Shown piece after piece: positions 1-25,742 of a stretch of 64,000 nucleotides of DNA. The DNA comes from Yponomeuta sedellus (lineage: Eukaryota; Arthropoda; Insecta; Lepidoptera; Yponomeutidae): contig OW203724.1 of NCBI GenBank assembly GCA_934045075.1, positions 16,421,143-16,485,142 of the forward strand, written 5' to 3'. Under the pieces are notes generated by a model, which was not told the DNA's origin, searched no databases, and saw only the letters and a list, made by a program, of their open reading frames with translations. Position 1 is the stretch's first letter. Each line of letters starts with the position of its first letter. The translations under genes were made by a program, and so were the position numbers.

Positions 1-3000
1 AGATTGAGACATTCCATTTTTGTTTCCTGTGTGAATAAGTTTGACCGAGTGAGTTTGTATGTAAAAAATTATGATTTAATAATTAATTTACAACATACTT
101 CATGAGTTAAAATTAAAATCAATACCTGTCATCGAAGACGCGCCAGATTGAGACATTCCATTTTTGTTTCCTGTTTGAATAAGGTTGACTGAGTGAGTAT
201 GTATTTTAAAATAATAAGATTTAATAATTAATTTACAACATACTTCATAAGTTAAAATAAAAATCAATGCCTGTCATCGAAGACAAGCCAGATTGAGACA
301 TTCCATTTTTGTTTCCTGTTTGAATAAGGTTAACTGAGTTCGTATGAATATAAGAGAATATGATTTAGTAATTAATATTTACGACATAACTCAGAAGTCA
401 AAATAAAAATCATAAATAAAATGCCTGACATGGAATACGCGCCAGATTGAGACATTCCATTATTGTTTCATGTTTAAATAGGTTTGACTGGGTTTATATA
501 AAAAAATATGATTTATTAACTGATTTACAACATGCATCACATGTTCTTATTAAGGAAAATTACATACCTGCCACTGAAAATGCACCAGATTGAACCATTC
601 CATTTTTGTTCTCTGTTTAGATAAGTTTGACTGAGTTAGTATGAATATAAAAAAATATTAATATAATTAATTTACAACATACTTCATTAGTTAAACTAAA
701 AATCAGTACCTGCCATGGAAGACGCGCCAGATTGAGACATTCCACTTTTGTTTCCTGTGTGAATAAGGTTGTCTGAGTGAGTATGTATGAAAAATAATAT
801 GATTTAGTTATAAATTTACAACATACTTCATGAGTTAAAATAAAAATCAATACCTGTCATCGAAGACGCGCCAGATTGAGACATTCCATTTTTGTTTCCT
901 GTTTGAATAAGGTTGACTGAGTGAGTATGTATTTTAAAATAATAAGATTTAATAATTAATTTACAACATACTTCATAAGTTAAAATAAAAATCAATGCCT
1001 GTCATCGAAGACAAACCAGATTGAGACATTCCATTTTTGTTTCCTGTTTGAATAAGGTTAACTGAGTTCGTATGAATATAAGAGAATATGATTTAGTAAT
1101 TAACATTTACGACATACTTTAGAAGTCAAAATAAAAATCATAAATAAAATGCCTGACATGGAATACGCGCCAGATTGAGACATTCCATTATTGTTTCATG
1201 TTTAAATAGGTTTGACTGGGTTTATATAAAAAAATATGATTTATTAACTGATTTACAACATGCATCACATGTTCTTATTAAGGAAAATTACATACCTGCC
1301 ACTGAAAATGCACCAGATTGAATCATTTCATTTTTGTTCTCTGTTTAGATAAGTTTGACTGAGTTAGTATGAATATAAAAAAATATAAATATAATTAATT
1401 TACAACATACTTCATTAGTTAAACTAAAAATCAGTACCTGCCATGGAAGACGCGCCAGATTGAGACATTCCACTTTTGTTTCCTGTGTAAATAAGGTCGA
1501 CTGAGTGAGTATGTATGTAAAATAATATGATTTAGTAATAAATTTACAACATACTTCATGAGTTAAAATAAAAATCAATACCTGTCATCGAAGACGCGCC
1601 AGATTGAGACATTCCATTTTTGTTTCCTGTTTGAATAAGGTTGACTGAGTTCGTATGAATATAAGAGAATATGATTTAGTAACCAACATTTAAAAAACCT
1701 ATTTAGAGGCTAAAAATTTCACCCATGCTGGGATTCGAACCCGCAACCTCTGGCTATCCGTGCCAGCGCTCTACCAATTAAGCCAATGGGCGACTCACCG
1801 GCATCTGTGAAATTTCGAACCTCTTAACACTATTCTCTGTATTACGTACAGGCAGCGACATCTGGCTTAAGCAAATTGCATCACTTACAGCCCCGACTAC
1901 CTACTTTGCAGTTAGGTTTTACATCGGAATGATATCACTGTACCCACATGATTATACTATTTTTATTTTTAATGCAGCTGCAGCGGAGATGGCGGGACGA
2001 CCTTACAACCTTTCTGCCGGACTGGCAGGAAGTGGCCATGAACAGGGAGGAATGGAAGACAAAAGGGGAGGCCTTTGCCCAGCAGTGGGACACAATCGAG
2101 GCTACATAAAAAAAAAAAATCCTGACATAGAATACGCGCCACATTGAGACATTCCATTTTTATTTCATGTTTTTATAGGTTTGACTGGGTTTATATAAAA
2201 AAAAATGATTTATTAACTCATTTACAAGATGCATTACATGTTCTAATTAAGGAAAATAACATACCTGCCACTGAAGATGCACCAGATTGAACCATTCCAT
2301 TTTTGTTTTCTGCTTAGATAAGTTTGACTGAGTAAGTATGAATATAAAAAATATGAATATAATTAATTTACAGCATACTTTATTAGTTAAACTAAAAATC
2401 AGTACCTGCCATGGAAGACGCGCCAGATTTAGACATTCCATTTTTGTTTCCTGTTTGAATAGTTTGACTGAGTTAGTATGACTAAGACTTTTAGTTAAAA
2501 ATTAATTTACAGCATACTTCACGGGTCAAAATAAAAATCAATACCTGCCGTGGAAGACGCGTCAGACTGAGACATTCCATTTTTGTGTTCTATTTGAATA
2601 GGTTTAATATAAAATGTTATTCATTGATTTACAATAGGCTTCGTAAGTTGTAATTAAGAAAAAATACATACCTTCCACTGATGATGCACCAGATTGGACC
2701 ATTCCATTTTCGTTTCCTGTTTGAATAAGGTTGACTGAGTTCGTATGAATATAAGAGAATATGATTTAGTAATTAATATTTACGACATACTTTATAAGTG
2801 AAAATAAAAAATAAAAAACATAAATAAAATTCCTGACATAGAATACGCGCCACATTGAGACATTCCATTTTTATTTCATGTTTTGATAGGTTTGACTGGG
2901 TTTATATAAAAAAATATGATTTATTAACTCATTTACAACATGCTTCACATGTTTTAATTAAGGAAAATTACATCCCTGCCACTGAAGATGCACCAGTATC

Positions 3001-6000
3001 GGACATTTCATTTTTGTTTCCTGTTTGAGTAGGTTTGACCGAGTTAATAATAATAGATACTCGTAAATATAATTCATATTATTTCATTTTTAACATGCAT
3101 GAAATGTTGTGTTACAGTCAATTACTTATTTAGCTTAGATATTAAATTAAAAACTATATAGGTAGGTATTACTTTTTTTAGTATAGTGAAATATTTCATT
3201 CTTTTAATGGGAAATCAATTGAATTTTCCCGTTATTTTTAATTAAGTTAAAACTATTTAGAAAATTAATTGGAACGTTGCATATCTTTTATAATAATAAT
3301 AAACACTGGAACGACTTCAATTGTGGCTTTATTTGTAGATTTTATATTTTAATAAAACAGAAAACTGGATAAAAACGGATAAGCAGGTAAAATAGTCAGA
3401 TCTCGTCAAAGGGTAAAGTAGTAATGATGAAATATGAGGGAAATCGAATAATGTGTGACGTAATTTAAATATTTGAAAATGATACATAGAAAAAGAAATA
3501 AAAATGATGTGAAGAGGTTTGCACCGTTACAAACTATAATTATTATTAATATTTTGGACATACTTGCAGTAGAAAATGCGTCAGATTGGGACATTCCGTT
3601 TCTGTTTCCTGTTTAGGAAAGTTTCATTGATTTAATCTTCTCAATCTTGGCCTTGAAATTAACAATAGAAAACATTGTTTTTTTTTAAGCTCAGGACTGA
3701 AGAGTGTAAGGTGAATATTAATAAATATTTCTTAGTTATTGAAGGAAGCTGGAGTATTTCGGACATATTTTATGATGCGTACTAACAAGTACGCATCTAC
3801 GCTTCCGTGCTTAGCAAGGCACGTTAAGCCTTTGGAGCCGGCTGTAATATAATGGCAGTCGTTAAGCCATGTCAGAGGCCTTATGGGCGGCTTGATAACT
3901 TCTGACAGTAAGACCCGCCACTGTCTTACAATCCTCCACCAACCCGGACTTGGCCCCCGTGGTGGAGTATGGCCTAACCTTCCTGCGATGCAGGAAGAGA
4001 CCCGTGCCCCAGCAGTGGGGACATACAAGGGTTGATAACGAACTAACAAGTACAGCCTCCTCCCATCTATCCTTAACTTATCGTACAAGGAAAGATTCTA
4101 GGAAAAAGGGGACCTGGGAGACTAAGTATATCATGACTACACAACCTACGACAGTGGTTTCAATAGAGTACCTGTTCCTTGTTTGTATTGGCAACCTCAA
4201 AAGGGAAGTTAGCCGAATTGGTTCCAAACCCCCGATACATAAACTAGATTAACTAAATAATACAAATATAGTTATATATAAATATGTGTGCTGTGTGGGG
4301 TCGGCCCAGAGAATAGCACCAACCCAATTCTTCCCGCGGGTGTCGTAAAAGGCGACTTAGGGACACAAACCGGGGGATGGGCAGGGCGGGCTATGTCCAG
4401 CAGTGGACTAGTATAGCCTGACGATGACGATGATACAAATATGGTCTGAGGACGTCCTACACTACGAAGGAGAAGTAATTTACTAAAATATATTATGATA
4501 AGGCCGCCGTCTGTACTCTAAGGTCTAAGGTTAATTTTTATATCTGTGTAATTTCCTTTTTTGTGTATAATAAAGTGTTCTCTATCTCTATCTATCTATC
4601 AACCGTCTTCGTGCGTGTATGCTCTTTCGCAGTGCAAGGGTCTTTCCGGCACGGAAAAAGGCCTTGTTACCTGCTTTACGGAACTAACTTCATCAAAGTT
4701 GTTTTCCTTGGTGTTTGTACAAAATTTTCCCTCTATGTCTTTTACTCGTTAACGTGTAAAGCCTACCTTGCTGTGACAGTTCCCTTTAAGTTCATTATAA
4801 TATTGTTCTGCTGCCGTGAACATAATTTACATAATTTAATAAATATAATTTAATTTAAACATAGCATATTAACCCTCCTCTGGAACCTGTTAGTACTATG
4901 AACCAAATACCACTGTTAAGTAAAAGAAAAATGATGTTTCTACGTGCCTGCCGCAGAAGATGCACCAGATTGAGACATTCCATTGCCTGTGAAAACAAAA
5001 AAGGGAATTAGAAAAACATATTTAAGCCACGTTAATTAGTGCCGGCCGTCATGTAATGGCAGTTGTTAACCCATGTCAGAGGCATTATAGGCGGTTTCAT
5101 AACTTCTGACAGTAATGCCCGCCACTCTCCATCCTCCACCAACCCGGATTTGGCCCCCGTGGTGAAGAATGGCCTTACCTTCCTGCAATGTAGGAAGAGA
5201 CCCGTGCCCCAGCAGTCGTCGACGTCGTCAGGCTATACTAGTCCACTGCTGGACATAACTCTCCCCTAAAGAGCGCCACGTTGTGCTATCATAGGGGGTA
5301 ATGCCCATAATCCCCACGCTGGGCATGCGGTTTGGGGATCGCAGTTCGGTGGAATTGTACTGCAGGGGGTGCAGCTGCCCATCACCGGTCCCCAGCAGTG
5401 GGGACATACAAAGTTTGATAAGTTAAGACACAATATCACGAATTGAATAAAATATTTTTTACTAAAACACTTTTTTTTGTCTTTTGCGTATGTCTCCATA
5501 TAGGTACACAATATTGTATTTATTTCCTCATCGCGTAGATTGTTATTATGACGTTTTTATGCAAGTTTATCATAACTATGTATGTAACTGTTTATGTAGG
5601 TATATTGTTATTTATATAAGTAGTGTATTAATATATTTATATTTGCACCGACTACCCGTCTCTTATTTCCTTCAGCAACTTTCCGTCGTAAGGTTGTCTG
5701 GAAGAAATTGCATTTAGCAATAAGGTCGGCAATTGTACTTTGTATCTTTGCATGTTTTTACCCGACTGCAGCGAAGCCCAAAAGGAGGGTAATGTGTTTA
5801 GTTCGTATGTATGTATGTATGTATGTATGTAAGTATGTCCGATTCTATGTTCCCTCTTAACTCCTTAACCAATGGTCAGATTTTGTTAAACAAGGTGTCA
5901 TTCGATTCGGCATCCTTGCGCGGGTGTCATAGGCTATATAAAATCATAATTATGCGATCTGAACCGTGACGAAAAATAAAATTCGTTAAGAAGCTTCGTT

Positions 6001-9000
6001 AAAGTACAGCTAGGAGCTACTAGATGGCGCTGTTATATTTAGTTTATTGAATTCAAATACTAAATTTATTGAACTACCCCTAACAGGTGTGAAATATTTA
6101 AAACAGAATTTTGCGGATGACGTAGGTTACATAAAATCAGTATTAATAATAGAGAACCAACGGAACATAAAATAACATTTACTTCTAAGCAATTAAAGTA
6201 CTACTTTTAGCCACTTGATGGCGCTGCTATATTTTATTTATTCTAATACATGTGTATACATAATTTCGGCTTTGGTCTACATGTAAACAAACCATTTATA
6301 GAATCGATACAAATGCGGAAAGAAATAATTCCTATAAAGTGGTTTGATCCTTCTAGACATTCATTTAATTAGAAAATATAATTTTGTTTAACTACGCCTA
6401 ACACGTGCAAAGTATTTAAAAGAGAATTTTGCGGGTGTCGTTGATTACATAAAATCAGCATTAATAGAGAACAAACGCAACACAAATAATATTCACTTCT
6501 AAGTAATTAAAGTACTGTAGCATTAGTTCCTCTACCCAACCACAGATGGCGCTGTTTGTGTTCTAAATTGCGGTATGGTTTTGTCCGAAGGCCCTACATA
6601 ATATTAAACAAAATTGGATAGTATTTGAGTTACATCGGGACATGGAAATCCCAACCATGCAGCAATTTATTAGGTCCCTCTCAGAGACGTTCTTCAGCAC
6701 TGCTGAAGAACATCCCAACCCCCTGATCCGCGAAGCAGCGGCTTACTCTCCGCCCACGACGGACCCACGTTACCTGGTGCGCAGGCCCAGGAACGTACGC
6801 GTTGACCCGCCCGACAAATTGTCGTCTGACCTGAACCACCTCTTAGAGGCTCGGTCTCAGTCAGACGCACCCCCCTCCTCTGCCAGTGTCCCCCCTAGGG
6901 GGGGCACTGCTCTTTCATAGCATTTTTGTAATATAAACTCTTCTAAGCGGACGCTCCGCTAGGGAGCTCCGCTGTGCGCCCTCCTCGGCCTCGAAGGGGG
7001 TCGCTCCCGATGTGGGTTTAGGGGTCTCTAAGGACCAAAACCAGTCCCAAGGTGGTGTTTAGTGGGTAGGCGCACTTCTTGTGAGTCCCACATTGGCAGC
7101 ACGGCCGGGTCCGTGCTGTTATGCATGAGCATTCACCACCTGCCTCCCCCGTGTCCTCCGGAGGGTGCCCTTTATAGGTTTAAAAAAAAAAAAAAAATAG
7201 TATTTGAGCGTTTGCGAATCACCTCGACCAATACTGACTGACCACTAATAATTGGCACGACTAGTGACGGAGGTAATATACCTCGCTTTGCGCTGTGGTG
7301 CGAGTAGTACAGTTGCTGTAATCCTTAGTTTCATATTGCTACAATAAATAGATCCCTAAGTACGTGCTGTCGTGCTAAAACAACGTTTCTCTTCTTGTCT
7401 GCTGAAACCCTGTCCTGTCCTGTCCATGTAAACAAACCGTCTATAGAAACGGTATTATGTGCTGAAAGAAATAATGCCTATAAAGTGTTTATTTCTTTCT
7501 ACGCCATTCGTTTATCTCATTAATTTAAGAAATATCAACCTCATAGGGGGTAAAAATAATTATTTTTTAACACTGGTATTAATTTCCTACTGACACTTAG
7601 ACCAAAAGTAACTGAACAAAATATATAAAGTGTAGCATGTAACTCCTTTTCCCCTGTGCGCTTATAGTCAGACAAGCTGGGTTCAAAGAAGAAACAATAA
7701 ATGATAAAAAAATATTTGAACGCTCTCACTGGTAACCGAAGACGGATCCTCCGTGACCTCGTATCGTTAGGACCCATGAAATTTTAAAAAATTCTAGCTC
7801 TATTCATCTTAACGAATTTTATCTCGTTTCCTCCGAAAATAAGATTATGATTTTGTGTTAGGTTTCCTGTTCACTTGTGAGACCAAAGATTGCTTATATA
7901 CACCTAAATATTCAGTAAAATTTTTCAATGCTTTAAGGGGCCACCTCAAGATGAATTTTTTATAGTTTCATTTTAATACCGGTAATATTTTGGCATTCAG
8001 AAAACCAAGATTTTGTGTGTCTCCACGCCGATGCTACAACTCTAAATAACTACGCCAGGCCGAAGGCCGAGCCCCATCATGCGGGTGCGAGGAAACTTGC
8101 CGCGACGAGGTTGAAGGCCGAGCTCAATACAGGTCGCGGCACGGCCGAAGGCTGTGAAGCGGGCTAGAGGAATACTCCCACGGCGATTCCAAATGCTGAG
8201 CTCTATTTACGCTGATGCCAAATGGAGAGACTATTAGCGCGGCTGAAGGCCGCGACAGTTACTTAAAGTTGCTGTTAGGAGTAAACCTGTCGCGCCTCTG
8301 TACAGGCCGCGGCTGAAGGCTCAGACCATTTATGTTCCCATTTACAAGTCCTTATTCTAAGTAATTAGCGAGACCGAAGACTGGGCCCAGCAATGCAAGC
8401 ACGAAGAATTCTACTCTGGACATGTCGAACGCTGAGCGCCGTTCAGGTCGAGGACATAATTTGTGACTATTCCAGTCCCCACCTACAATCGTTAACATTA
8501 AATAACTAGGTGCAGTGAAGCGTTTTTAGGCTACATAAAAAACAGACAATTTATGTAAGGATGATAAAGAAAAAAATCTGTCGTTTCCTTTGCAAATATT
8601 CTAGATAGTTTAACACCATTAGACCATATTCATTATACTAGCTAAAAAATATCATACGACATAAATTTTTAATGCAGGCAGGTGGTACCTATGACTATAT
8701 CAAACAAGTACATCAGTAAAAATATTTATGATTTGCCGAGACATGTCCATTGTCGAACAAAAGAAAATAAAGCAATAAACTAAAATTCATTTAGGAAATA
8801 AAATAATATAACGATTTAAAGCATGTAAGCAGAACAGGATTGACCTTTAAATTTTATCGTTTTACTGAGTCACTAAAAGGTCAAAAATAAAAAAATATAT
8901 TTAAAAAAATAAAAGAACCCGACTGCAGTTATAAATCAACTGAAAGGGAAAAAATAAGATAATTTTATTTTCAAATGCTAATGTCGAATCAGAAGAGTTC

Positions 9001-12000
9001 ATGCTGCTTTACTTGAGGGACCAAATAATATAACTTTATAAGCGTTATTTGCTCAAACTGTTGCATTTATTATTTTATATAAAATGTTGCAGTCGGGACC
9101 CATTACTGTTTGTTTAAAGTCCTCTAATGGGTCCCGACTGCAACATATTATAAAATAATAAATGCAACAGTTTGAGCAAATAACGCTTATAAAGTTATAT
9201 TATTTGGTCCCTCAAGTAAAGCAGCATGAACTCTTCTGATTCGACATTAGCATTTGAAAATAAAATTATCTTATTTTTTCCCTTTCAGTTGATTTATCAC
9301 TGCAGTCGGGTTCTTTTATTTTTTTAAATATATTTTTTATAATATGTGCTCTGGTGTACAATACAGAATATTGTTATCTTATCTTAAAACAGTAATTATT
9401 ATGCACCAATTCAGCAATAACATACGGTTTCGCCATCAACACGATAGGAGGAAAACAAATGCATTTATAAGTATCTGGAGTGCAGCACTGGAAACAGCTG
9501 CCTAGATACGTTCCACTGCAGAGCACATGGCTCCTCTCAGAGCGACAGTATGCCCATCCAACGTCAATCAATCAATCAAATCAATTTATTTTAACGTAAA
9601 GAACTTACATTCGGTTAGCTGAATGTCTATGTAAAATGTAAGCGACGTCGATTGGGGATTTAAAATCGCGCTTTGAGTCCTAGACCTACGAGCATAATAA
9701 TATGCTACGTGGTTTTTACCTCGGATCGACGTCATCGGTGACACAGCTTTACTTGTGTCGCCGACAACGTCGAGCGGTCAATGGATTCCTCCATTGACTT
9801 TGATAAGCTACAAGCAAAATTTCCAACCTGTTGGAGTAGCAACAATCTTACTTGCCGGTTTTAAAGTACTTATAAGAACGTCGTCGAGCCACAAGTTTGC
9901 GTACATACTTGTCTACACCCAGTTAAAGGCTGGGAGCACCACAGACGCTTTCTACTATGTTGAAATTTCTATTATCCTTTTTCATTGTATATAATTTTAT
10001 TTGTGTATTTTGTTTCTTGTGTGCAGTAAAGAATATTTCATCAGCTTTCCAGTGGTATCGCTACTAAAATCCACAAATGTAACATAGAAAACAAAAGGAT
10101 TCGAACAAAACCATCTCTTTAATTGAGGCCAGTTTTCTACCGACGTGCTTTCACCATCGGTATATAATTATTTATAATTATATATGGTTAATCTACAATT
10201 TTTCTCATTTTCTCAGACCTAAGTATATGCTTAGGTCTGAGAAAAATATGTTTTAAGTTCATTAAATTTGAAAGAAATCTTATTTGTTGTTACTCAGCTC
10301 AAAGTTTTTCTTAAGAATTACGATGATGTTTGGGAACGTTCATTGCCCGTTTCATTTACTTAAACTACAAAGATGATTTTAGGGGCGTGATTTAGGAACG
10401 GTTCGTAACGCGCATTCTTGCCATATCCATACCTGAAGAAGCCAGAGCAACGGCCGTTGAAGCTGCGCCGTTACTCGCTGCTGGAATAAGTGGTATCAAT
10501 TTCACTACAAAATTATGCTTACTTAAAGTTACTTCAGCATTTCATTTAACATACCAGCAGCGGCTGCACTTGCAGCACTTTGTGTACGTCCATCTTTCCC
10601 TTTTAAATAAAATTTCATTTAGTGATAAATAAAAGGCAAAAAAGGTAAACAGACCAGTCAAGTAGGAATCGAATTCACAGGGGATTCATAGCTTCCATAA
10701 ATATAATATTACGTAAGCGATGCAATTTACTTGAGCCAGATGTCACTGCCTGTACGTAATACAGAGAATAGTGTAAAGAGGTTCGAAATTTCACTGATGC
10801 CGTTGAGTCGCCCATTAGCTCAGTTGGAAAGAGCGCTGGCACGGATAGCCAGAGGTCGCGGGTTCGAATCCCGGCATGGGTGGAATTTTTTGCCTCTAAA
10901 TAGGTTTTTATAATATTACGTGTTTAGATAAACTATATTTTCTTCCAGTCAGTTCAACAAAGTTATCGGGAGTCTGATTTACAATTGACCACCTTTTTTA
11001 AGGTTCCGTAAGAGCGGTGGTAGCGTAGCGGTAGAACGCCGGCTTCTCAATGACTTTGTTTTCTAAGTTATGTACATTTGCGAAGTTATAGTAGGAATAC
11101 CACTCGCTTACATACCTAATCTTGCGCCTGAAGTATTAACATACCTGATCGCTTACTACGACAATAATCCAACTATGAGCCTAAGTGTGGAAATCTCAGG
11201 CTAACTAACTAATTAGGGTTCTGTAGTCAACAAATAATCCTTATGATTTCTCCTTATGTTCGTTGGTTTTCATTTACGACAGCCAGTGAGACACAGCTCA
11301 CGAAAAGGCAGCCAAACTGATAGATAGCATAGGCATGCTAAGACAGTCCAGTTTGAATATTTAGAGTATGGAATCCTAGAAACAAAACAAAAAAAACTTA
11401 ATCAACTCACCAGTTTGTGACATGGCGCCTGAAGACGCTGCAGATGCACCTCCTTTGGGACCACCTAATGACATTATATAAATTATTACACATTATTATA
11501 AATGAACATCAATCCGTATGTAAAAAAGGCAAAAGTGATTGACTGATACATCAACGCACAGGCCAAACCCTTTTGGCTAGAAAAAATAATTTCGCTCACG
11601 TATTTTTTTTAATGTAACTTTTTTAATGAAACTTTTTATTCCTCAAACATATTTGATGAAACTTCGCATAAATTGAATACGGTAAAAATATTTTTTTACG
11701 TACGTCAGCGTTTTCCTAAATTCAACCCCCAATAGGGTGAATTAGGGGATAAAGTGTGTACGAAACATCTTACTCCTGGACATATTTGCATGAAACTTCG
11801 TATGAATTGAGTGCGTCACAAATAATGAGTTACGTGTTTTCTAAAATTCAACCCCTTAGAGGTAAAATAGGGGATGAAAGTTTGAAGTAAACGGGCAAGC
11901 CAAGCCTCTAGAAACTTGAAATTACGCCCACGTATTTCTCATAATTGACGACAGCATCCACTAAAATAGGATTTCACAAAATGTAACCCTTGCCCAAGGC

Positions 12001-14458
12001 GGTGAAATAGGTGACAATAGTTTATATGAAACTTTATATTCCTTGGTCATAATTGCATAAAATTTTGTGCAATTTGAGTATGGTAAAAATAATGAGATAT
12101 GTACTTTAGCTCTTTCTAAAATTCAACCCATAAGAGGATAATATAGGGGACGAAAGTTTTTACCAAAACGCACAGGCCAAGTCTTTATTTAAAGCTAGAA
12201 ACTTGAAATTTCACACATCTATTACTTATTCTGACGACGGTGTCTATTAAGAAATTATTTTTGCAAAATTCAACGCCAATAGGGGTGAAATAGGGGAAAG
12301 GCAAAAAAAATCGTTTTCAAAAATTCAACCCGCAAGAGGGTAAAATATGGAATGAAAGTTATCTCGCATTTACGTGAAACAATGTGTTCAGATACCTACA
12401 CAAAGATCTGAATTGACACATACTTGATATCGTTTCTGTAGGATACAGACGTTAGTAATACAGAACTAAGAACTCTTACCACTGGATGCAGAATTGGAGA
12501 AGCTTCTTGACATGGCCCCATTTTCTTTTTCTGAAAGTTGTTCAAAAAGTTTGTGGCTTGTACTACTTATTAAAGTTTAAACAAAACTATTAAAGAAAAA
12601 ACATTATAAGCTACTTATTTCATTACTCTGTTTCAAAGTAGCTAGTGTCAATTAGTCAGTTTAAGATATAGATTTTTACCAACATTGCTGTATGATATGT
12701 AAAAAGCCATATCTAGTTTCGACAGCATTCAATTTACAGCAATTAACCACAATTTTATTTAAATTTATTTAGATGTCTGTCTACCGTTACAAGTAGAACA
12801 AAAGTTTTTTATCATTGAAAAAATTCATCTTAACATTTAGTTTCAAAATAAAATCGTTGCCTTTTATTAAATTATTTAAGAAAAGTAAATTGTACTTTAT
12901 TTTTGTAAGACCAGCTACTAGTCTTGAAGCCTCCACCAATTCTTACTTGGTCCTCTTGTGGAGTATGGCCTATGCCTTCCTCAGGGAGGAGACCCCTCTG
13001 TGAGGTCATAATGGGTTGATGATGATGAACTTACTTGATCCACATATATCCTGATTAATCCGGATATATGTGGTGGTTATGAATGTTTTAGTACAATAGT
13101 TATGGTAATTTTGTGTCGTAGTCATATTAGTATATTTCCTTCAATACTCCTTTAATTACAAAGCGCCCGACTTAAATCGGCTTCGAAACTGATTTTTCAA
13201 CTTCCTGGAGCTTAAACGACAAAAATGTGTTGTGAAATTTTTGTAAAGTACATAAAACATGCAAACAAACCTTCATTAGAGCCCGCAGAAGAATTATCTG
13301 TATCGTTACCAGGATTGAGGTCATTGTAATCGGGCGAGACCTCACCGTAGTCTGCAAGAAGAAGCCCCAGGTACTAAATTAACTTAAAGTACCAATTAAC
13401 GCGTAAAATTGTAATAAATCTTCCAGTAAAGGATTTAGAAGATGTGTTTGAACTTCATCGTCATAAAGACCACCACCATCCCCTAAATGGAAGAATAGCG
13501 AATGTTGTCATCAGCGCCTGAATTTTGATCGACTTGTTTAACCTTTACACTTGCACTGGAAAAGATCTATTCTCAGTACTAAAAACGCGGCTGCATGGTG
13601 AGTAATCTATTCTGCAAACCTTATATCTACTGTAGAAGTAACTTAAGTATTGAGTTGAGGTCTTTTTCAGGCCCGAGCGGAGAGGTTAACTTTAATATTT
13701 CAATCGCGATGGTCACACATTGTTATTTAAACGGGTGTAATCGCGAATTTTTATTAGGTAAAACGTAATTACCTTAATTTCCGACTTTTCGACAGTGTTC
13801 ACGGGTAGACTGAAGTGGTGAGTACAGTCAATTATTGTAGTGAAGGTAGGTGGTTTACCCTCAAGTCACTTTTAGTTTTATACGTGACCACGGCAACTTC
13901 AACGCCGTCGTAACGTCGGGAATTAACATAATTACGTTTTACCTAATAAAAAATAGCGATAAGACCCGTTCAATAAATAACCATAAGGTTGAGTTTATTA
14001 ACTGTTTTTTGCTCACCATCGATTTCGCTTTTATTAGCTTCATCAGCATCTAATACGCTTGGCTCAATATAATCGTCTTTGTAGTTGGTGTCTTCTCCTG
14101 AATTATGAGAAAAATATAACACTTAGACACATTTTAATACTTCATATTGATCACATATTATCATCCTACCGGTAGGTGACTGTGAATGTTGATGAAGCTA
14201 TTGAAGCAAAAGGGACTTGTTATGTTCGTGGCAAATGATAAACCTTGAATTTTGTCTTTTCTGCCAGAATACAGGCATGAATTTATTATGTATTTATCAA
14301 TGTGTGTAGTAGGTTAGATAAAATTGGATTAAATTATTTGTGCGATATTTACCGTATCCAAAATATAGGCCTCTGTCAATATCTTCCTGATTTTGGGCTA
14401 AAACACTTTGCGCCGAAATAAATAAAATAGACAAAAACCAATACTTGAGTCGGCTCAT
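1..14458 (-). CDS. secreted Ser/Ala/Gly/Asn-rich repeat protein encoded by symmetric microexons (3' end outside window)
   Basis: Seen: a minus-strand chain of exons with conventional splice borders. In transcription order they are 14458-14353, 14097-14017, 13351-13271, 12530-12480, 11464-11411, 10599-10555, 10477-10433, 4986-4948, 3608-3564, then a tandem microexon array from 2716 to the window edge. Exon 1 begins with ATG and a hydrophobic leader (FLSILFISAQSVLA) typical of a signal peptide. Exons 2-3 are acidic (Asp/Glu/Asn). Later exons are Gly/Ala/Ser/Asn-rich repeats. Every junction is phase 1 and usually splits a Gly, Glu or Asp codon (G|GN), so the frame stays open across all joined exons. 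Inferred: a secreted structural or low-complexity protein. Sericin- or silk-like proteins are the nearest analogy, but I recognise no family. No stop codon or polyA signal falls inside the window. A gap in the exon chain between 10433 and 4986 is filled with transposons and may hide exons I missed. Confidence 0.77.
126..1581 (-). repeat. 728-bp higher-order repeat, two tandem copies (126-853 and 854-1581)
   Basis: Five microexon units (126, 271, 425, 568, 710) recur 728 bp later (854, 999, 1153, 1296, 1438) in the same order and with only scattered substitutions, introns included. Unit 1582 starts what would be a third copy, but its following intron matches the second unit's intron, so the third copy has lost sequence. 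This is block amplification on top of the single-exon repeat, most simply by unequal crossing-over. Confidence 0.9.
425..469 (-). pseudogene. splice-dead microexon subtype (also at 1153-1197, 2122-2166, 2833-2877)
   Basis: In all four copies the base triplet before the exon on the coding strand is CAT instead of CAG, so no acceptor AG exists at the expected place. Donors are GC in the two left copies and GA in the two right copies. The frames remain open (for example NNNGMSQSGAYSMSG). Unit 2976-3020 has a good acceptor but a GG donor. Because all units are phase 1, skipping these leaves the protein in frame. Confidence 0.65.
1691..1976 (-). mobile_element. tRNA-derived SINE, family A
   Basis: On the minus strand it carries a tRNA-like block (GCCCATTGGCTTAATTGG, then GGTTCGAATCCC) with A- and B-box-like promoter elements, followed by a tail containing GCCTCTAAATAGGTTTTT. 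It interrupts the microexon array. Confidence 0.75.
1977..2119 (+). mobile_element. non-LTR retrotransposon 3' end with polyA
   Basis: One frame encodes the C-terminus of a reverse-transcriptase ORF: RRWRDDLTTFLPDW, then EEWKTKGEAFAQQWDTIEAT and a stop, followed by an A-rich tail. The WRDDL...W...GEAFAQQW pattern is the common C-terminal signature of insect non-LTR elements. It is heavily 5'-truncated. Related ends lie at 52030 and 62574. Confidence 0.8.
3564..3608 (-). CDS. microexon gene, exon 9 (45 bp)
   Basis: This 45-bp phase-1 exon has acceptor CCTAAACAG|GAAACA and donor TGCAA|GTATGT. It encodes NRNGMSQSDAFSTA. It is the first unit of the dense array, about 540 bp upstream of the next recognisable unit, and differs from the consensus at several positions, as expected for an older copy. 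Confidence 0.75.
3793..4041 (+). mobile_element. 5S-rRNA-derived SINE, 5'-truncated, with 12-bp target-site duplication
   Basis: The body of the 5S-SINE family lacks the 5S head in this copy. It is flanked by the direct repeat ACTAACAAGTAC at 3781-3792 and 4042-4053, which proves retroposition and fixes the element's end at GTTGATAACGA. Confidence 0.82.
4290..4436 (+). mobile_element. SINE-like family F copy with (GATGAC)n tail
   Basis: It begins around TCGGCCCAGAGAATAGCACC and ends CCAGCAGTGGACTAGTATAG followed by CCTGACGATGACGATGAT. It shares its middle and 3' end with the copies at 5216, 15839 and 28590 in reverse orientation. Confidence 0.65.
4437..4600 (+). mobile_element. retroposon 3' tail, family G
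   Basis: It contains ATAAGGCCGCCGTCTGTAC and TAATAAAGTGTTCTC followed by a TCTA repeat. The same tail recurs at 30430 and 36449 (minus), 55385 (plus) and 52752 (minus). It is probably the 3' UTR of a non-LTR element. Confidence 0.55.
4948..4986 (-). CDS. microexon gene, exon 8 (39 bp, GC donor)
   Basis: This 39-bp symmetric phase-1 exon encodes NGMSQSGASSAA, the array consensus lacking its first two residues. The acceptor TTGTTTTCACAG|GC is strong. The donor is CAG|GCACGT, a GC rather than GT dinucleotide. GC-AG introns are a known minority class and usually have a good CAG exon end, as here. Confidence 0.68.
5039..5421 (+). mobile_element. 5S-derived SINE split by a family F insertion
   Basis: The SINE body runs 5039-5215 and resumes at 5390. 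The interruption (5216-5389) is a separate element, and CCCCAGCAG is duplicated on both sides (5207-5215 and 5390-5398). Confidence 0.8.
5216..5389 (-). mobile_element. SINE-like family F, complete insertion with 9-bp target-site duplication
   Basis: A 174-bp element nested in the 5S-SINE. On the minus strand it ends with CCAGCAGTGGACTAGTATAG and a short GAC/GAT tail. The duplication shows that family F is mobile in its own right. It encodes no protein. Confidence 0.8.
5628..5756 (+). mobile_element. retroposon 3' tail fragment
   Basis: It contains GCACCGACTACCCGTCTC, GTCTGGAAGAA and ATAAGGTCGGCAATTGTAC. The same order of motifs occurs at 58060-58160, so this is the 3' end of a dispersed element. 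Confidence 0.5.
5756..6617 (+). repeat. unclassified dispersed repeat with internal duplication
   Basis: It starts CCCGACTGCAGCGAAGCCC and includes a short (GTAT)n run at 5806-5830. Within it, 6085-6225 and 6398-6535 are diverged copies of each other (shared AAAAGAGAATTTTGCGGGTG-like core). No ORF of note. The opening CCCGACTGCA also appears at the ends of the hairpin element at 8887-9340, which suggests a related non-autonomous family. Confidence 0.45.
6630..7196 (+). mobile_element. 5'-truncated Jockey-like LINE with 3' UTR, polyA and 12-bp TSD
   Basis: The frame 6642-6920 encodes the last 92 residues of a non-LTR reverse transcriptase: a conserved HPNPLIREAAAY stretch, then RRPRNVRVDPPDKL, before the stop. 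A GC-rich 3' UTR of about 260 bp and an A-run end at 7196. The flanking direct repeat ATAGTATTTGAG (6618-6629 and 7197-7208) marks the insertion exactly. It is too short to be functional. Confidence 0.85.
7209..8040. other. intron sequence without recognised feature
   Basis: AT-rich sequence within the long intron between exons 7 and 8 of the microexon gene. Part of it (7420-7530) resembles 6285-6370 (shared CATGTAAACAAACC and GAAAGAAATAAT), so it continues the repeat that the LINE interrupted. No exon of the gene could be found here. Confidence 0.4.
8041..8510. repeat. GC-rich interspersed repeat with recurrent GAAGGCC motif
   Basis: Short phrases such as GGCCGAAGGCCGAG and GGCTGAAGGCCGCG recur about every 50-70 bp between AT-rich flanks. 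There is no long ORF. It is probably part of a non-autonomous transposon; class not determined. Confidence 0.4.
8887..9340. mobile_element. foldback element: arms of about 217 bp, near-perfect inverted repeat
   Basis: The left arm (8887-9105) and right arm (9125-9340) are reverse complements with very few mismatches, around a 19-bp spacer. Each arm is itself bounded by ACCCGACTGCA-type ends. A transcript would form a long double-stranded hairpin. It lies in an intron of the microexon gene. Confidence 0.85.
9341..10150. other. mixed repeat remnants, no gene recognised
   Basis: It holds a retroposon tail motif (ACAGAATATTGTTATCTTATC, 9362-9382 region), a second tail type at 9575-9650 (CAATTTATTTTAACGTAAAG, also at 19275 and 56650) and otherwise unplaced sequence. 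The short open frames here show no protein-like pattern. Confidence 0.4.
10208..10245. repeat. perfect hairpin, 16-bp arms
   Basis: TTTTCTCAGACCTAAG and its reverse complement are separated by TATATG. Intronic. Confidence 0.8.
10433..10477 (-). CDS. microexon gene, exon 7 (45 bp, NAGNAG acceptor)
   Basis: This 45-bp exon encodes ASNGAASTAVALASS (the first Ala codon is completed by the G of the previous exon), with donor TCAG|GTATGG. The acceptor is CCAGCAG, a tandem NAGNAG. Use of the upstream AG would lengthen the exon to 48 bp and add one Ala codon, still in frame. Confidence 0.75.
10555..10599 (-). CDS. microexon gene, exon 6 (45 bp)
   Basis: This 45-bp symmetric phase-1 exon has acceptor TTTAAAAG|GGAAAG and donor GCTG|GTATGT. 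It encodes KDGRTQSAASAAAA: the same 15-codon length as the array units and the same layout (x-K/D-N/G-G-x-x-Q-S-x-A-S). Confidence 0.78.
10690..10912 (+). mobile_element. tRNA-derived SINE, family A
   Basis: A GCCCATTAGCTCAGTTGG block, then GGTTCGAATCCCGGCATGGG and the tail GCCTCTAAATAGGTTTTT. It is not a functional tRNA: the acceptor stem is imperfect and the anticodon arm (loop ACGGATA) lacks T33. Confidence 0.8.
11011..11215 (+). mobile_element. tRNA-derived SINE, family B (internal deletion)
   Basis: It begins AGAGCGGTGGTAGCGTAGCGG but lacks the B-box half of the tRNA region present at 17096, jumping directly to CAATGACTTTGTTTTCTAAG. The rest of the family B body follows. Confidence 0.75.
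11411..11464 (-). CDS. microexon gene, exon 5
   Basis: This 54-bp symmetric phase-1 exon has acceptor GTCATTAG|GTGG and donor AACTG|GTGAGT. It encodes GPKGGASAASSGAMSQT. The acceptor tract is only moderate, but length, phase, composition and the strong donor all fit the series. Confidence 0.77.
12480..12530 (-). CDS. microexon gene, exon 4 (first repeat-like exon)
   Basis: This 51-bp symmetric phase-1 exon has acceptor CTTTCAG|AAAAAG and donor CAGTG|GTAAGA. It encodes KENGAMSRSFSNSASS. The KENGAMSRS core lines up with NKNGMSQSG of the downstream array, so this looks like an ancestral, longer form of the repeated microexon. Confidence 0.8.
13040..13073. repeat. hairpin, 12-bp arms
   Basis: CCACATATATCC and GGATATATGTGG flank a 10-bp spacer, within intron 3 of the microexon gene. 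Confidence 0.75.
13271..13351 (-). CDS. microexon gene, exon 3 (acidic)
   Basis: This is an 81-bp symmetric phase-1 exon. The acceptor (CTTCTTCTTGCAG|ACTAC) is a textbook polypyrimidine tract, and the donor is GAAG|GTTTGT. It encodes DYGEVSPDYNDLNPG and then NDTDNSSAGSNE. NDT and NSS are possible N-glycosylation sequons. The exon has the same length and phase as exon 2, with a similar Asp/Asn-rich composition. Confidence 0.8.
13724..13980. mobile_element. MITE, family M1 (TIR AACGGGTCTAATCGCGATTA type)
   Basis: The terminal inverted repeats (AAACGGGTGTAATCGCG ... TAGCGATAAGACCCGTTC) lead into GGTAAAACGTAATTACC on both sides. Family members occur at 17768, 34697, 40716 and, partially, 35175, 41195 and 60690. 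It encodes no protein, and sits in intron 2 close to exon 2. Confidence 0.75.
14017..14097 (-). CDS. microexon gene, exon 2 (acidic)
   Basis: This is an 81-bp symmetric phase-1 exon. The acceptor is a pyrimidine-rich stretch ending in TTCAG at 14098-14100, and the donor is CGATG|GTGAGC. It encodes EDTNYKDDYIEPSV and then LDADEANKSEID, strongly acidic and probably extended. Length and phase match exon 3, so the two may be an old exon duplication. Confidence 0.8.
14353..14458 (-). CDS. microexon gene, exon 1: start codon and signal peptide
   Basis: The start codon is at 14458-14456. The 106-bp coding part gives 35 residues plus one base: a short basic start (MSRLKYW), a hydrophobic core (FLSILFISAQSVLA) and a likely signal-peptidase site at VLA-Q, then NQEDIDRGLYFGY. 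The donor reads ATACG|GTAAAT on the minus strand. The open frame continues only briefly into the intron, as expected at a true exon end. An upstream in-frame ATG at 14566 is less likely, because it would put non-hydrophobic sequence before the leader. Confidence 0.82.
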
Positions 14459-14499: not shown

Positions 14500-14511
14500 G
14501 TCTTATAAGGA
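14500..14511 (-). promoter_or_regulatory. possible TATA box of the microexon gene
   Basis: The minus strand reads TCCTTATAAGACC, about 45-50 bp upstream of the start codon at 14458. A start site about 30 bp downstream would leave a very short 5' UTR, as in many abundant insect secretory-gland transcripts. This is a motif match only. Confidence 0.3.
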
Positions 14512-18320: not shown

Positions 18321-21300
18321 CTGAAAATAAAGTAATAATTTTATTATTAGATCAATATCATTATCATAAAAATCAAATTATCATTTTATTACTAAATATA
18401 GTCTACGTAGATACCACAAAAAATGAATATCTCTAGCGAGAAGTGCGATGGAGTTTCTTGTCCGATTTTATCCATAAAAATCTAGATCTTGCTTGAAATT
18501 GATACCCATGTTAATTTATAACATATCTACAGTAATGTTTATTAAATAAGTGGTTATTCAATTGTAGTTTTAATATAACGAAGAAAATGCTGAAAACGTA
18601 AATTTTTAAGCTTTTCCTTTAATTGGTTTATTGTATCTTAGGCTGACTTGAGACTTTTTTTTAAATTAACTGTTACGAAGCAGCGATAGCCCAGTGGGTA
18701 GAACAACGGACTCGGAAGCGAGAATGCCAGGTTCGATTCTCAGTGCGGGCATGTACCAGTGACTTTGTTTTCTAAATTACGTACATTTGTGAAGTTGTAG
18801 TGGTAGTAATACCACTCGCTAATGTAAAGGAAGACACCGTGAGGAAAGCTTTGTATCTGTATCTAAGGTGTTCAAATACCTCAGCGCTTGAAATTGCCAA
18901 TCCGCGAAGGGAACGCGTCGTAATTAAGCCCATACTCTCTCTCTCTCTCTCTCTCTCTGAGAGAACTCCTGTGGCCTGGAGTGGCACGTTTATACGCTAC
19001 ATCAAAAAATAGATTGAGCAGTAGAGAGAATTAAATAGATATTGAAATATTCATCGACTTATTACACAGATCTCGTTAGCCCTATACTAAGTATAGGGCT
19101 AACGAGATACAACTAAATGACTTGTATAGATTTAATACAATAAATACATAGATATCATCCAAGACCCGAGACAAACTAGAAAAGTTCGTTTCCTAGTTTG
19201 ACCCGGCCGGGGGTCGAACCCGAGACCTTCAGTTTTACACTCAGCGTGCCAAACCGCTGCGCCACCTAGGCCGTCAAATCAATTTTCTTTCAACGTAAAG
19301 AATTTACATTCTGTTTTCTGAATGTCAATTTATACAATGTAGAATCTAAGCCGCTAATGAGTATAGGTAATACTTACACTAGTAAAAGTGTTCAAGTTCA
19401 TGTCAACAAAACCACTCGCTGTCAGTTTGAAAGGCTGCTGCACTCTCATTAATAAAATCAAGAGAGACTTTTTAGTCTTCTGATCCGCGTAGATCCATTG
19501 CGACTCATAAATATCTTGGGCCAGGTGGATGCTCTGAATATGTAGGAGTATTTTGTGAATACGCATTGAAAAACATCAAGCGTCTTACTACAAAAAAAAT
19601 TGTTAGGTGTGGAGCTAGTGTTTAAAATATTTAGTGTGTTTATCACAGTACGTACAAGCATATTTAAGCTATATTTGCTAAACAAGAGTTTTCGTGACTA
19701 AATATAGACCATGCCTAAGCCGTGTCTTGGTCTTACCTATCATAAAAACAGTATTGTGGTAAACAAAAGGATTTGGTAAACATTGAATTACTTGCTCAAC
19801 ACCTGTTTAAATTTTTTGAAAGAGTTTCTTGTTTACAAAAACACGATGCCACTAAAACACACTCTTAGAGGCATTTTATTTAATATGTGGTGTCCTTTCC
19901 TTGTAAAATCTCCACCACATGCTATTTTACTAAGCCTTTTTGGAGTGTTTTATTGTTTTACTATTTTTATTTTTAATGCACTAACCCGTGCTAAGGAACA
20001 AATTTAAAAACCTATTTAGAGGCTAAAAATTTCACCCATGCCGGGATTCGAACCCGCAACCTCTGGCTAGCCGTGCCAGCGCTCTACCAATTGAGCCAAT
20101 GGGCGACTCACGGCATCAGTGAAATTTCGAACCTCTTTACACTATTCTCTGTATTACGTACAGGCAGCGACATCTGACTTAAGCAAATTGCATTACTAAC
20201 AGCCCCGACTACCTACTTTGCAGTTAGGTTTAACATCGGAACGATATCACTGTACCCACATGATTATACTATTTTTATTTTTAATGCACTAACCCATAAT
20301 AGTGTTTTATTGTGTTTTTATAAACAAGGTTGTTTATTTTTAATAAGAACTTTGGAGTTTTGTTTTAGTTATTATGAGCTATTTCCAGTTTTTTTTATTT
20401 TTTTTATTTGTACTGTCGCGTTGTGTGCAATAAATCGTACTTATTTAATGTAATACAAAGATCAGACTGCGACGTTACGAATTTTATAACCCTTCTTGTA
20501 CAACAATTCATAAAACAAAGCTTCAAACCTTTGAACAAAAAATACTCGTACGAAGCAAATTGGAAATATTCGTTTTTTTTTTAAAAAAAGATAGTGCACT
20601 TTATTTTGTAATTTATTTCTTGAGTTTGCTGTTTGCTTAAAATTTACCGTAATAAGCTGCTCATGGTTTGCCGTGTCATAAATTTAGTGGGTTTGTCCTA
20701 CTTACATGGTCGCTCATAACCTGCCCAAGACAGCAATGGTAGATTGCGTCTAAAACCAAAGACAAAAAGAAGCAGGAACATCGAATCGTTTGGTAGGTGT
20801 TATCAGCAACCTAAAACAAAGCATCGTCATATTAAATGCCTGCGGAAGACGAACTTATCTACAAAATCGGCTAAGTGCAAGTTGAACTTGTGCACCGAGG
20901 GTTCCGTAGTCACGCTTGGCTGTTTGTTATTATTTATCGTTAGAATAAATAGTGCCCTCAGTCTGGGTGATTCTACGTCCTTGCCTGGTAATCATGGCAC
21001 AGGGTATCCTAGTTTGGTACCAGGCCAAGTCATTGTGTTATAAAGTAGTTATATAAAAATGTATCCCACAATCACACCAAGATGCCTGCATATATTATCC
21101 TTTTTGTGATAGAACATAATTATGTGAACCATGGAAACAAATAACGGCAAAAATACAACTTTGTCCTCCTACCCTCCTTAAATTTTTTTTTTTTTTTATT
21201 ATTTATATTTAAGGTGAATTCAGAACTAAATATGCTGTGTATATTTCAAGCGCCCACAAATTGCCGTTTATATAGAGCAAAAATTGACAAAAAATTACGT

Positions 21301-22834
21301 CGGTTGTAGATGAGTACCACTTTATTTATTGTACGCTGGGTTTGTTGTTATAATGAAAACAAAAATACATCATATTATAACATTTCAACTGTCTTGCTTT
21401 CACGCTTTATGAGATAAAGCCTGGCGAAAGACAGACAAACGGATAGTGAACTCTTAGTAATAGGGTCTCATTTTTACCTAAACGTACTTACAGTTGAAGT
21501 GAAAGCAGTGAGGCAAATAAGAGCCGATCCCATGGAATAGACACCAAACATAGTAATGCCGATCATTCTGTCCAAATCTTTACAAATGCTGTAAACAATA
21601 AGTTGACACTTAGAACTACCAACTTACAATCCTAATTCAGTAATTTCGACATAAAACTCGGGGTCTTCCTAGCGATAAAATATTACATATTATGTTCTGT
21701 AGTATGTATTTTATTTATTTTTGTCTCTTACTCGCTTTTTATCAATACACAAAAAAATATTTTGAATGCGTTAAACATTATTTAGATGTGCTTAATTTGT
21801 TTCGTTAAAAGTGACATAAATTTCCCGGTTTATCGGAGGCTCTGTCAGATGCTTTTTCATGTGCAAAGTTGACCAACCGATAGCTGTTACATTGTTTTAT
21901 GTAAAGATTTTACCCTTGAGTTACAGGCGTGTGTGTAGCCGCAACATCACCAACGACTTCGCAAATAAAAAACAGCCTCTAAATAGGTTTTTTAAAATAA
22001 AAAACAAACAAGTTCTTACCGAGCCAAAGCATTATGCCTCGTAATAATGTCCCTGAGCTTGTATTTGATTTTATCATTAACTCGAGACTTATCCGCAGAA
22101 TTCTGGATATCATTAATATCGCTTTCGCTAATAAGGTTCTTAATGCTATAGCCAAGAACCCTAAGTTCCATACAAATACAAAGAATTATGAACAAGTTAA
22201 TCATAGCTGAGTACATGTAGACGATAATTACGATCCCAGTCATTAGACTCTCCCATAAGTAGATTGTGTAATACCACTCGATCTTGTCAAAAGGGTACCA
22301 CCCATCAAAAGGGTACAAGTGTTTCAGCTCCTTTCCAAGTATTTTGTTTTCAAACATCATTAGTATATACGGCAAAAAATCGACCATGCTAATTAATGGT
22401 ACACAATAATAGAGTTGCACTCTGTTTAAAATTTTTCCAGCAAACATGTAAGTGTCTACTATCTTTTTTATTTCTGGATTGTTGTCCGGTTTTGATCGAT
22501 AGAATACTTTATTGTAATGGTTGAAAAATGTATTGAGAAGTTTCTTGTTCTTATGGATGATTATGTACTTTGCCAGGGTCATGAGGCAGATGCCCAAGTT
22601 CGATGAAACGTTGCTGAAATCTGACAAACTATTGAAACCCGTAAAAACAAAGGTTAACATTAGCTGCAATGTAGTAATACTCTGTAGCAATACGAGGAAA
22701 TAAAATCCAAAAAGTATTTTCCAATTCAAATTTTCACAATGAGGATACAGGAATATGTTCCTTGCAATTTTGTTTAATAGGTTTTCTTCAGTTTGGAATT
22801 TGGTCTTAAACGCTGATACTTCCGTGGTGACCAT
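18264..22834 (-). CDS. insect odorant receptor (7tm_6 family), complete five-exon gene
   Basis: Exons 22834-22020, 21588-21492, 20810-20706, 19533-19378 and 18320-18264 join in frame (phases 2, 0, 0, 0) to 409 codons plus stop, the normal size for an insect OR. These are odorant-gated membrane proteins of olfactory neuron dendrites that work with the co-receptor Orco. Seen: the long first exon has several hydrophobic segments and a typical YPFDGWYPF extracellular stretch. Exon 2 reads ICKDLDRMIGITMFGVYS then a membrane segment. Exon 3 has CSCFFLSLVLDAIYHCCLG followed by QVMSDH. Exon 4 carries the diagnostic C-terminal pattern HLAQDIYESQW...LLMRVQQPFKLTASGF then NLNTFTS. Exon 5 ends AYRLFNLLHTVYEP. 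The LA.DIYES.W and P..L.A..F..LNL.TF patterns are hallmarks of moth ORs. All splice sites are GT-AG. Ligand and subfamily cannot be told from sequence alone. SINEs occupy introns 3 and 4. Confidence 0.94.
18681..19012 (+). mobile_element. tRNA-derived SINE, family B variant
   Basis: The head CAGCGATAGCCCAGTGGGTA and B-box GGTTCGATTCTCAG are followed by the family B body, with a (CT)n run near the end. It lies in intron 4 of the odorant receptor gene, antisense to it. Confidence 0.75.
19040..19275 (-). mobile_element. tRNA-derived SINE, family D
   Basis: On the minus strand: GGCCTAGGTGGCGCAGCGG, GGTTCGACCCCCGGCCGGG, then AAACTAGGAAACGAACTTTT. Compared with the copy at 53853, a perfect 19-bp-arm palindrome (19070-19108, CTCGTTAGCCCTATACT and complement) replaces part of the tail. 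In OR intron 4. Confidence 0.75.
19378..19533 (-). CDS. odorant receptor exon 4
   Basis: 156 bp, phase 0. Acceptor ACATATTCAG|AGCATC, donor ACTAGT|GTAAGT. It encodes 52 residues with the conserved HLAQDIYESQW and MRVQQPFKLTASGF motifs of the last intracellular loop and final membrane segment. Confidence 0.93.
19958..20290 (-). mobile_element. tRNA-derived SINE, family A, in OR intron 3
   Basis: Full tRNA-like block (GCCCATTGGCTCAATTGG, GGTTCGAATCCCGGCATGGG) on the minus strand. The phrase TTTTTATTTTTAATGCACTA lies at both ends (19961 and 20270 regions), either a long target duplication or part of the element. Confidence 0.75.
20706..20810 (-). CDS. odorant receptor exon 3
   Basis: 105 bp, phase 0 at both ends. 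Acceptor TTTGTTTTAG|GTTGCT, donor GACCAT|GTAAGT. It encodes 35 residues, VADNTYQTIRCSCFF through AIYHCCLGQVMSDH: the membrane segment and the position where moth ORs have a Cys-x-x-Gly stretch before the conserved IYES.W loop. Confidence 0.9.
21492..21588 (-). CDS. odorant receptor exon 2
   Basis: 97 bp. Acceptor TGTTTACAG|CATTTG, donor TCAACT|GTAAGT. It completes the split Arg codon and encodes ICKDLDRMIGITMFGVYS followed by a hydrophobic segment ending ALICLTAFTST. Confidence 0.92.
22020..22834 (-). CDS. odorant receptor exon 1
   Basis: 815 bp, from the start codon at 22834-22832 to donor GGCTCG|GTAAGA (phase 2). It encodes the cytoplasmic N-terminus and roughly the first four to five membrane segments. 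A single long open frame with no competing start upstream. Confidence 0.94.
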
Positions 22835-23190
22835 GGTGTAAGAGTGCTGCTTTTACATTGTTGGGTCAGGCATAGACGACTTGCAACGTGTAAGAACTAA
22901 GCACCGTTGGCAAAACAAGATTCCGAGAAGAAAACCGTTTCAGTAAATTCTGTATTTTTTATCGATAATAGCATTTTTCTTAATACTTTTTTAAGTATGT
23001 TTATTTTGCTACGCTGCACAAAAAGTGTTTATAACTTCAATACGAGGTTACCAAAAAAGTAAGCAACTCCTGAAACATTCTAATTAGAGATTTTGTTTTA
23101 TACTTTTATATGTATCAGAGTTTCCACACTTTACGAACGTCATAATTTGAGGTAAAATTTTGAGGTAACTTTTTATAAGTGTTAACTGTT
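22835..23190. promoter_or_regulatory. upstream region of the odorant receptor gene
   Basis: No transposon and no convincing TATA box or other motif is visible. It is listed because it must contain the promoter if the start codon is right. Confidence 0.35.
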
Positions 23191-23782: not shown

Positions 23783-24038
23783 AAAAACATAATGGCGATT
23801 ATACCCATTGAATATTGTTAAGCACCGTATGGTGCCCTACCTTTCTGTTTTAATAATAGGTTAATTATTTATTTATAAATCCGTGTTTATTTGATAATAT
23901 TTTCAAGACAACTTTTACAAGAACAGACATCGAACTGAATTTTAAAAACTAACACAAGTAAAAAAAGACAATAATATGTACAAAAAGTCAAAACAATAAA
24001 AAAGGTCTGTCATAATCATGTCATAACCATAACAGAAG

Positions 24039-25549: not shown

Positions 25550-25742
25550 CGTATGGTGCCCTACCTTTCTGTTTTAATAATAGGTTAATTATTTATTTAT
25601 AAATCCGTGTTTATTTGATAATATTTTCAAGACAACTTTTACAAGAACAGACAGCGAACTGAATTTTAAAAACTGATACAAGTAAAAAAAGACAATAATA
25701 TGTACAAAAAGTCAAAACAATAAAAAAGGTCTGTCGCCTACA

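Follow-up and report, generated by a model that had tools for sequence, protein, structure and literature searches.

Short symmetric exons and a 45-bp exon array in a putative silk-coat-type gene of Yponomeuta sedellus

Does a row of 45-bp repeats on the minus strand of a moth genome belong to a gene for a secreted protein, and if so, what kind of protein would it encode? We addressed this in a stretch of 64,000 nucleotides from Yponomeuta sedellus (GenBank assembly GCA_934045075.1, contig OW203724.1), referred to here as the window. A sequence-only reading of the same DNA had proposed a signal-peptide exon followed by at least 20 short minus-strand exons. We found this anatomy, with a signal peptide judged by eye, but five of the 19 complete array copies cannot be spliced in their present form. 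Our analysis makes it fairly probable that the window contains the 5' part of a lepidopteran gene whose product is a secreted protein of low complexity, structural or adhesive in nature. Within that reading, the silk-coat (sericin/silk-mucin) type is the most likely. The 3' end and the stop codon would lie to the left of base 1.

Gene anatomy upstream of the array

The features upstream of the 45-bp array, with the basis for each in brackets, are the following.

14502..14508, minus strand: TATA-like TTATAAG, possible promoter (sequence, suggestive only)
14353..14458, minus strand: exon 1, start codon and signal-peptide-like MSRLKYWFLSILFISAQSVLA... (signal peptide judged by eye)
14017..14097, minus strand: exon 2, 81 bp, phase 1-1, acidic (splice sites and kept phase)
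13393..13482, minus strand: possible extra exon, 90 bp open, phase 1-1 (doubtful)
13271..13351, minus strand: exon, 81 bp, phase 1-1, acidic, Asp/Asn/Tyr (splice sites and kept phase)
12480..12530, minus strand: exon, 51 bp, phase 1-1, EKENGAMSRSFSNSASS (splice sites; leave-out scan)
11411..11464, minus strand: exon, 54 bp, phase 1-1, GGPKGGASAASSGAMSQT (splice sites; leave-out scan)
10555..10599, minus strand: exon, 45 bp, phase 1-1, GKDGRTQSAASAAAA (splice sites; leave-out scan)
10433..10480, minus strand: exon, 48 bp, phase 1-1, AASNGAASTAVALASS (leave-out scan)
4948..4986, minus strand: 39-bp array-like exon GNGMSQSGASSAA with a GC donor (sequence)

Exon 1 ends in the donor G|gtaaat, and its last base is one base of a codon. 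At least seven exons lie between it and the 45-bp array, all of them open, in phase 1-1 and 39 to 81 bp long. Every exon after exon 1 is a multiple of 3 in length and all borders are in phase 1, in agreement with the earlier description of symmetric exons that start with two bases and end with one base of a codon. Since all exons are in phase 1-1, the gain, loss or skipping of any of them keeps the frame. The exons ending at 14017, 13271 and 12480 combine AG and GT sites with a multiple-of-3 length and phase 1-1, and three exons (11464-11411, 10599-10555 and 10480-10433) are additional to those reported before. In the segment 13482-13393, the acceptor is acceptable, whereas the donor (G|gtactt) is weak; the segment is possibly an optional or dying exon, and because of that donor the joined protein was built without it.

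The TTATAAG element ends 44 nt upstream of the start codon, a distance that would give a short leader, as in silk genes. Two features count against our main reading. One is a gap of ca. 5.4 kb without a recognized exon, from 10433 to 4986; the other is an out-of-frame ATG at 14468 on the minus strand, 10 nt upstream of the start codon. This ATG has A at -3 and G at +4 and opens a 30-codon overlapping frame.

Whether the upstream exons and the array form one gene was evaluated with a leave-out scan, in which five array peptides plus the array consensus were the only training data for a composition scorer. The scan set comprised 3,194 open AG..GT segments, 30 to 102 bp long and in phase 1-1, from the two strands, with GC donors outside the scan. 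Exons 12530, 11464, 10599 and 10480 scored 11.7, 17.2, 9.1 and 10.2, respectively. Counting overlapping variants, the top 40 rows included 19 from the array, 14 from these four upstream exons and 7 from elsewhere; the best segment outside the gene scored 11.6, and four outside segments exceeded exon 10599. The acidic exons 14097 and 13351 were absent from the top 40, as expected given their different composition, and so were some array copies. An earlier composition scan had been trained on the exons that it recovered and was not used as evidence. As far as these four exons are concerned, the leave-out scan supports a single gene comprising upstream exons and array.

Structure and constraint of the 45-bp array

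The array and its notable units are as follows.

3564..3608, minus strand: first 45-bp array exon (sequence)
1..3020, minus strand: 18 further complete 45-bp copies and one cut by base 1 (26-1) (sequence)
2976..3020, minus strand: unit with GG replacing the donor GT (sequence)
425..469, minus strand: example of an unspliceable unit, AT replacing the acceptor AG (type recurs at 1197, 2166 and 2877)
171..898, minus strand: higher-order repeat copy 1, five 45-bp units, 728 bp (alignment)
899..1626, minus strand: higher-order repeat copy 2, 715 of 728 positions identical to copy 1, no gaps (alignment)

The 19 complete copies run on the minus strand from 3608 to 126, and all of them are open and exactly 45 bp long. 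Their consensus, GNKNGMSQSGASSMA, is a 15-residue repeat and corresponds to the previously noted repeat in another register. The sequence supports the claim of one 45-bp exon per repeat; spliced copies would give joint peptides of the type GNKNGMSQSGASSMAG. The repeat pattern matched 18 times in the window, versus 0.00 times on average across 100 shuffled sequences. A search of the window for copies with up to 20 mismatches gave no match on the plus strand, and a further minus-strand row at 60992 was dropped as spurious (20 mismatches).

The splice dinucleotides were AG..GT in 12 copies and AG..GC in 2 (1043 and 315; the 39-bp exon also has a GC donor), while 5 copies had no usable site. Four of these five, at 2877, 2166, 1197 and 469, are of one type, with AT where the acceptor AG is expected, and the fifth is the unit at 3020. 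Usable exons are thus fewer than repeats, and the proposed equality of exon count and repeat count fails. Along similar lines, the Gly described at the junctions is only a majority state: read with the preceding G, the first codon gives Gly 15 times and Glu 4 times among the 19 array copies, and joints outside the array give Asp, Glu, Ala or Arg.

Introns between neighboring array copies (n = 17) measure 82 to 116 bp, and the unit is ca. 144 bp long (Tandem Repeats Finder [TRF]; consensus unit of 144). An insertion with a tRNA-like piece separates copies 2166 and 1626. One unspliceable unit is found in each 728-bp block (469 and 1197). Retention of any array intron brings in a stop (17 of 17), although AT-rich DNA often has stops. 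Because of exon phase and length, intron retention would lead to a stop and exon skipping would keep the frame.

From this structure, a plausible history can be drawn. The repeat region would have grown by tandem duplication, probably through unequal exchange, of ca. 144-bp units in which a single 45-bp exon is paired with a short intron, and in a later step the five units of a 728-bp block may have been copied together. As adding, losing or skipping any phase 1-1 exon keeps the frame, a copy with a decayed splice site could simply be absorbed into a longer intron, a state in which 5 of the 19 copies would now be. The 45-nt exons are predicted to be spliced by recognition across their short introns. 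Along the protein, an acidic N-terminal segment would lead into a repeat region rich in Ser, Gly, Ala, Asn and Met, the array part of which would be basic.

We then considered selection on the copies. Alignment of 17 units gave nine distinct indel sites, none of them inside the exon (P of 0.034 under uniform placement). The mean pairwise difference (136 pairs) was 0.166 in the exon and, depending on the filter applied to gapped columns, 0.212 to 0.228 in the intron, with an exon/intron divergence ratio of 0.78 (bootstrap 95% confidence interval [CI], 0.50 to 1.12). Among distinct changes, 26 were nonsynonymous, 11 synonymous (9.4 expected; P of 0.30) and 1 at the edge, and zero stops in the copies is unremarkable (0.84 expected; P of 0.35). 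The pairwise pN/pS ratio of the 19 copies, which are not independent of each other, was 0.55. In the five unspliceable copies, pN/pS (0.113/0.271) did not exceed that of the remaining 14 copies (0.141/0.273), and the coding signal therefore fails to separate live from dead copies. Copy length and frame look constrained, while the residues of single copies are not clearly so. We gave up the idea that each copy is under strong purifying selection, given a CI that spans 1, near-neutral changes and unspliceable copies that behave alike.

Predicted product, surroundings and alternative readings

The joined product has 22 exons and 378 residues. After the first 22 residues, it contains 21.6% Ser, 14.6% Gly, 12.6% Ala and 10.4% Asn, with a GRAVY of -0.78, which bears out the silk-like composition noted before; Met, Thr and Pro make up 7%, 3.4% and 1.1% of the joined protein. 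Its pI is 4.75 overall, 4.05 for residues 23 to 110 and 9.8 (basic) for the array part. The signal-peptide-like start and the Ser/Gly/Ala/Asn-rich composition fit a secreted structural or adhesive protein. We would expect the locus to be transcribed and its product to be secreted and to serve in silk, possibly with lengths that vary between individuals.

The proposed search with the joined repeat protein was run against a protein database and gave no relative at an E value of ≤10 among the scored word-sharing candidates; these were ca. 208 to 661 aa long in one set and ca. 530 to 1685 aa in another, of which the 7,987 with the most words in common were scored. No Pfam family was above the cutoff (weak Tom37_C, E value of 0.14, 12.7 bits versus a cutoff of 22.5), a viral-contig scan with 26 pattern matches gave no relative, and tblastn with the joined protein as query found nothing in the window past base 14500. 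The two empty database searches with the joined protein gain some weight from an odorant receptor query that did recover lepidopteran proteins. This receptor fragment (22016-22852, minus strand as the repeat gene, 278 residues, 7tm_6 E value of 7.9e-12) has 40 protein relatives, and each organism-named one is lepidopteran; the best identity is 63%, and the nearest organism-named relative is from Plutella xylostella (42%). The receptor thus places the window in Lepidoptera, and these identities would fit a thinly sampled lineage.

Several other elements surround the gene. A direct duplication of ca. 5.4 kb (30309-35744 and 36328-41758, 99.7% identical, offset of ca. 6,019 bp) is either a recent segmental duplication or an assembly duplicate. 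A retroelement remnant with DUF5641, presumably of the BEL/Pao type, occupies 23814-25735 on the minus strand, with direct repeats at 23814-24011 and 25538-25735 (98%). A tandem satellite with mostly 8-bp copy spacing (52792-54051) has minus-strand open frames of YLFI-type repeats. At the gathering score, Rfam gave five tRNA matches and nothing else: 1718-1793 (minus), 10808-10884 (plus), 20031-20106 (minus), 32358-32420 (minus) and 38377-38439 (minus). These tRNA-like pieces are perhaps heads of short interspersed elements (SINEs), and the first two sit in introns of the repeat gene. Its large intron also holds an inverted repeat (8890-9338) with arms of 190 nt, 99% complementary and 69 nt apart.

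A skeptical account would accept the upstream gene as real, now or in the past, and see the array as a tandem repeat drifting without selection, in a pseudogene or past the end of a shorter gene. We consider this unlikely. It would explain why 5 of 19 copies are unspliceable, with the broken type in both 728-bp blocks, why the CI of exon/intron divergence includes 1 with substitution classes near neutral, and why unspliceable copies are as constrained as the rest; it also draws on 10 stretches of the gene region (1,877 of 14,458 bp) that recur elsewhere in the window like interspersed repeats and on the inverted repeat at 8890-9338 with its 190-nt arms. However, drift would have to leave 19 of 19 copies at exactly 45 bp and open while 17 introns vary from 82 to 116 bp, with exon columns free of indel sites (P of 0.034), and the pairwise pN/pS of 0.55 (again for nonindependent copies) and the match of the upstream exons in composition and phase argue in the same direction. 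That the array or its blocks are an assembly artifact seems very improbable: the 98.2% identity of the two blocks and the 5.4-kb duplication at 99.7% within the same window would suit it, but copies differ from each other at 0.166 of exon and 0.212 to 0.228 of intron positions, differences that an assembly error would not make, and we rejected it as the main cause on these grounds.

Other alternatives concern the identity of the protein. It might belong to a named silk-coat family (Mucin1-like, P150-like or sericin 4) from which it has diverged, and not be a separate gene, which we regard as a minor though credible prospect. Many exons with whole-exon duplication in Yponomeuta Mucin1, the 34 exons of Bombyx sericin 4 and hydrophilic Ser-rich repeats point that way, and silk-coating proteins are described, in a passage of PMC9684489, as changing even more than fibroins. 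The lack of a relative at an E value of ≤10 among scored candidates, in a database that holds lepidopteran proteins, argues against it, and so do Thr and Pro contents (3.4% and 1.1%) that are low compared to mucin repeats. That the protein is secreted and repetitive but has its place elsewhere (eggshell, accessory gland, cuticle or saliva) is improbable, even if composition and a secretion signal alone do not indicate silk and the 7% Met looks unusual; nothing favors any of these tissues, and, in the sources as far as cited here, it is for silk that many-exon repetitive genes are documented in Lepidoptera. A fibroin heavy chain was rejected on gene layout (many small exons), and a mucin in the strict Pro/Thr/Ser sense was rejected on the low Pro and Thr contents.

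The silk-coat type of gene, our preferred reading, leads to a more specific and tentative proposal: a lineage-restricted silk-type protein, the length of which would depend on how many copies there are of a 45-bp phase 1-1 exon still spreading in five-unit blocks. As losing or skipping an exon leaves the frame intact, broken exons would travel with each block, and steps of 15 residues between individuals, as well as tuning by splicing, would be possible. If spliced as predicted, this would be an unusually clean one-exon-per-repeat structural protein, with amplification steps, frame-safe symmetry and tolerated dead exons visible in one locus. It would also offer a test case for the fast divergence of silk coats, with exon copy number versus in-exon repeats as the size setter. 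A locus of such mini-exons shows why genes of this kind could be missed or split in annotation. The earlier expectation that gene finders would miss 45-bp exons is plausible in this light; the 34 exons of Bombyx mori sericin 4, for instance, were divided among three models in one gene set (PMC8228281).

Comparison with known repetitive-protein genes

No family had been recognized in the earlier reading. This stands at the level of sequence, among the scored candidates and in Pfam, but the kind of gene is known, as the account of Yponomeuta Mucin1 in PMC9684489 indicates. Silk Mucin1 of Yponomeuta cagnagella has 32 exons, is inclined to whole-exon duplication and encodes 3,262 residues with 22% Ser and a pI of 4.4 (PMC9684489). 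Our gene resembles it (and Mucin2) in being lepidopteran, predicted to be secreted, hydrophilic and repetitive, with whole-exon duplication, while its basic array differs from the pI of 4.4 in Mucin1 and no sequence match was found. The scored database candidates of ca. 208 to 661 and ca. 530 to 1685 aa held no relative at an E value of ≤10, a result that bears on Mucin1/P150 only as far as members of that group fall among these candidates, and the low Pro and Thr contents do not give Pro/Thr/Ser repeats of the Mucin1/P150 type. C-terminal cysteine motifs are described for these silk proteins, CXCX in the Ser1 group and CXCXCX in the Mucin1/P150 groups (PMC9745057).

With sericins in the broad sense, the predicted protein shares Ser richness, hydrophilicity, repetitiveness and a signal-peptide-like start (judged by eye). 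Its 21.6% Ser is near the low end of the silk Ser contents given in the portions of PMC9684489 and PMC9745057 used here. Yponomeuta sericin repeats are tandem and inside large exons (PMC9684489), unlike the one 45-bp exon per repeat found here. Since Bombyx sericin 4 has 34 exons, the large-exon rule for sericins is apparently not general. Our gene is, like sericin 4, a many-exon gene, with no sequence match to it found here; sericin 4 itself is stated to be absent from cocoon silk (PMC9745057). In a basal moth family, large repetitive silk genes with few exons are described (sericin-like, 2 to 4; mucin-like, 4 and 10; PMC11906653), and the fibroin heavy chain has a very short exon 1 and a very large repetitive exon 2 (PMC9684489).

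Outside silk, schistosome MEGs have short symmetric exons of 6 to 36 bp and mostly encode secreted proteins (PMC5825161), and exons of 3 to 81 bp with introns of up to 5 kb are also given for them (PMC10526429). The likeness is in architecture only (short symmetric exons and a predicted secreted product), in a different phylum, and homology is not claimed; tandem copies of a single exon do not figure in the descriptions of MEGs cited here. Fibrillar collagen genes are rich in 45- and 54-bp exons that hold whole numbers of repeats and start with a complete Gly codon (phase 0); unlike them, the array has no Gly-X-Y repeat. The human tropoelastin gene, with 34 exons and phase 1 borders, also encodes modules of an extracellular structural protein (PMC3458006), although this unrelated protein alternates hydrophobic and cross-linking domains, versus a single repeated 45-bp unit here. 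Within the class of symmetric-exon repeat genes, our locus has 19 of 19 copies at 45 bp and in phase 1-1, with usable splice dinucleotides in 14 of them. Overall, it is probably a new variant of an already known type of many-exon silk gene.
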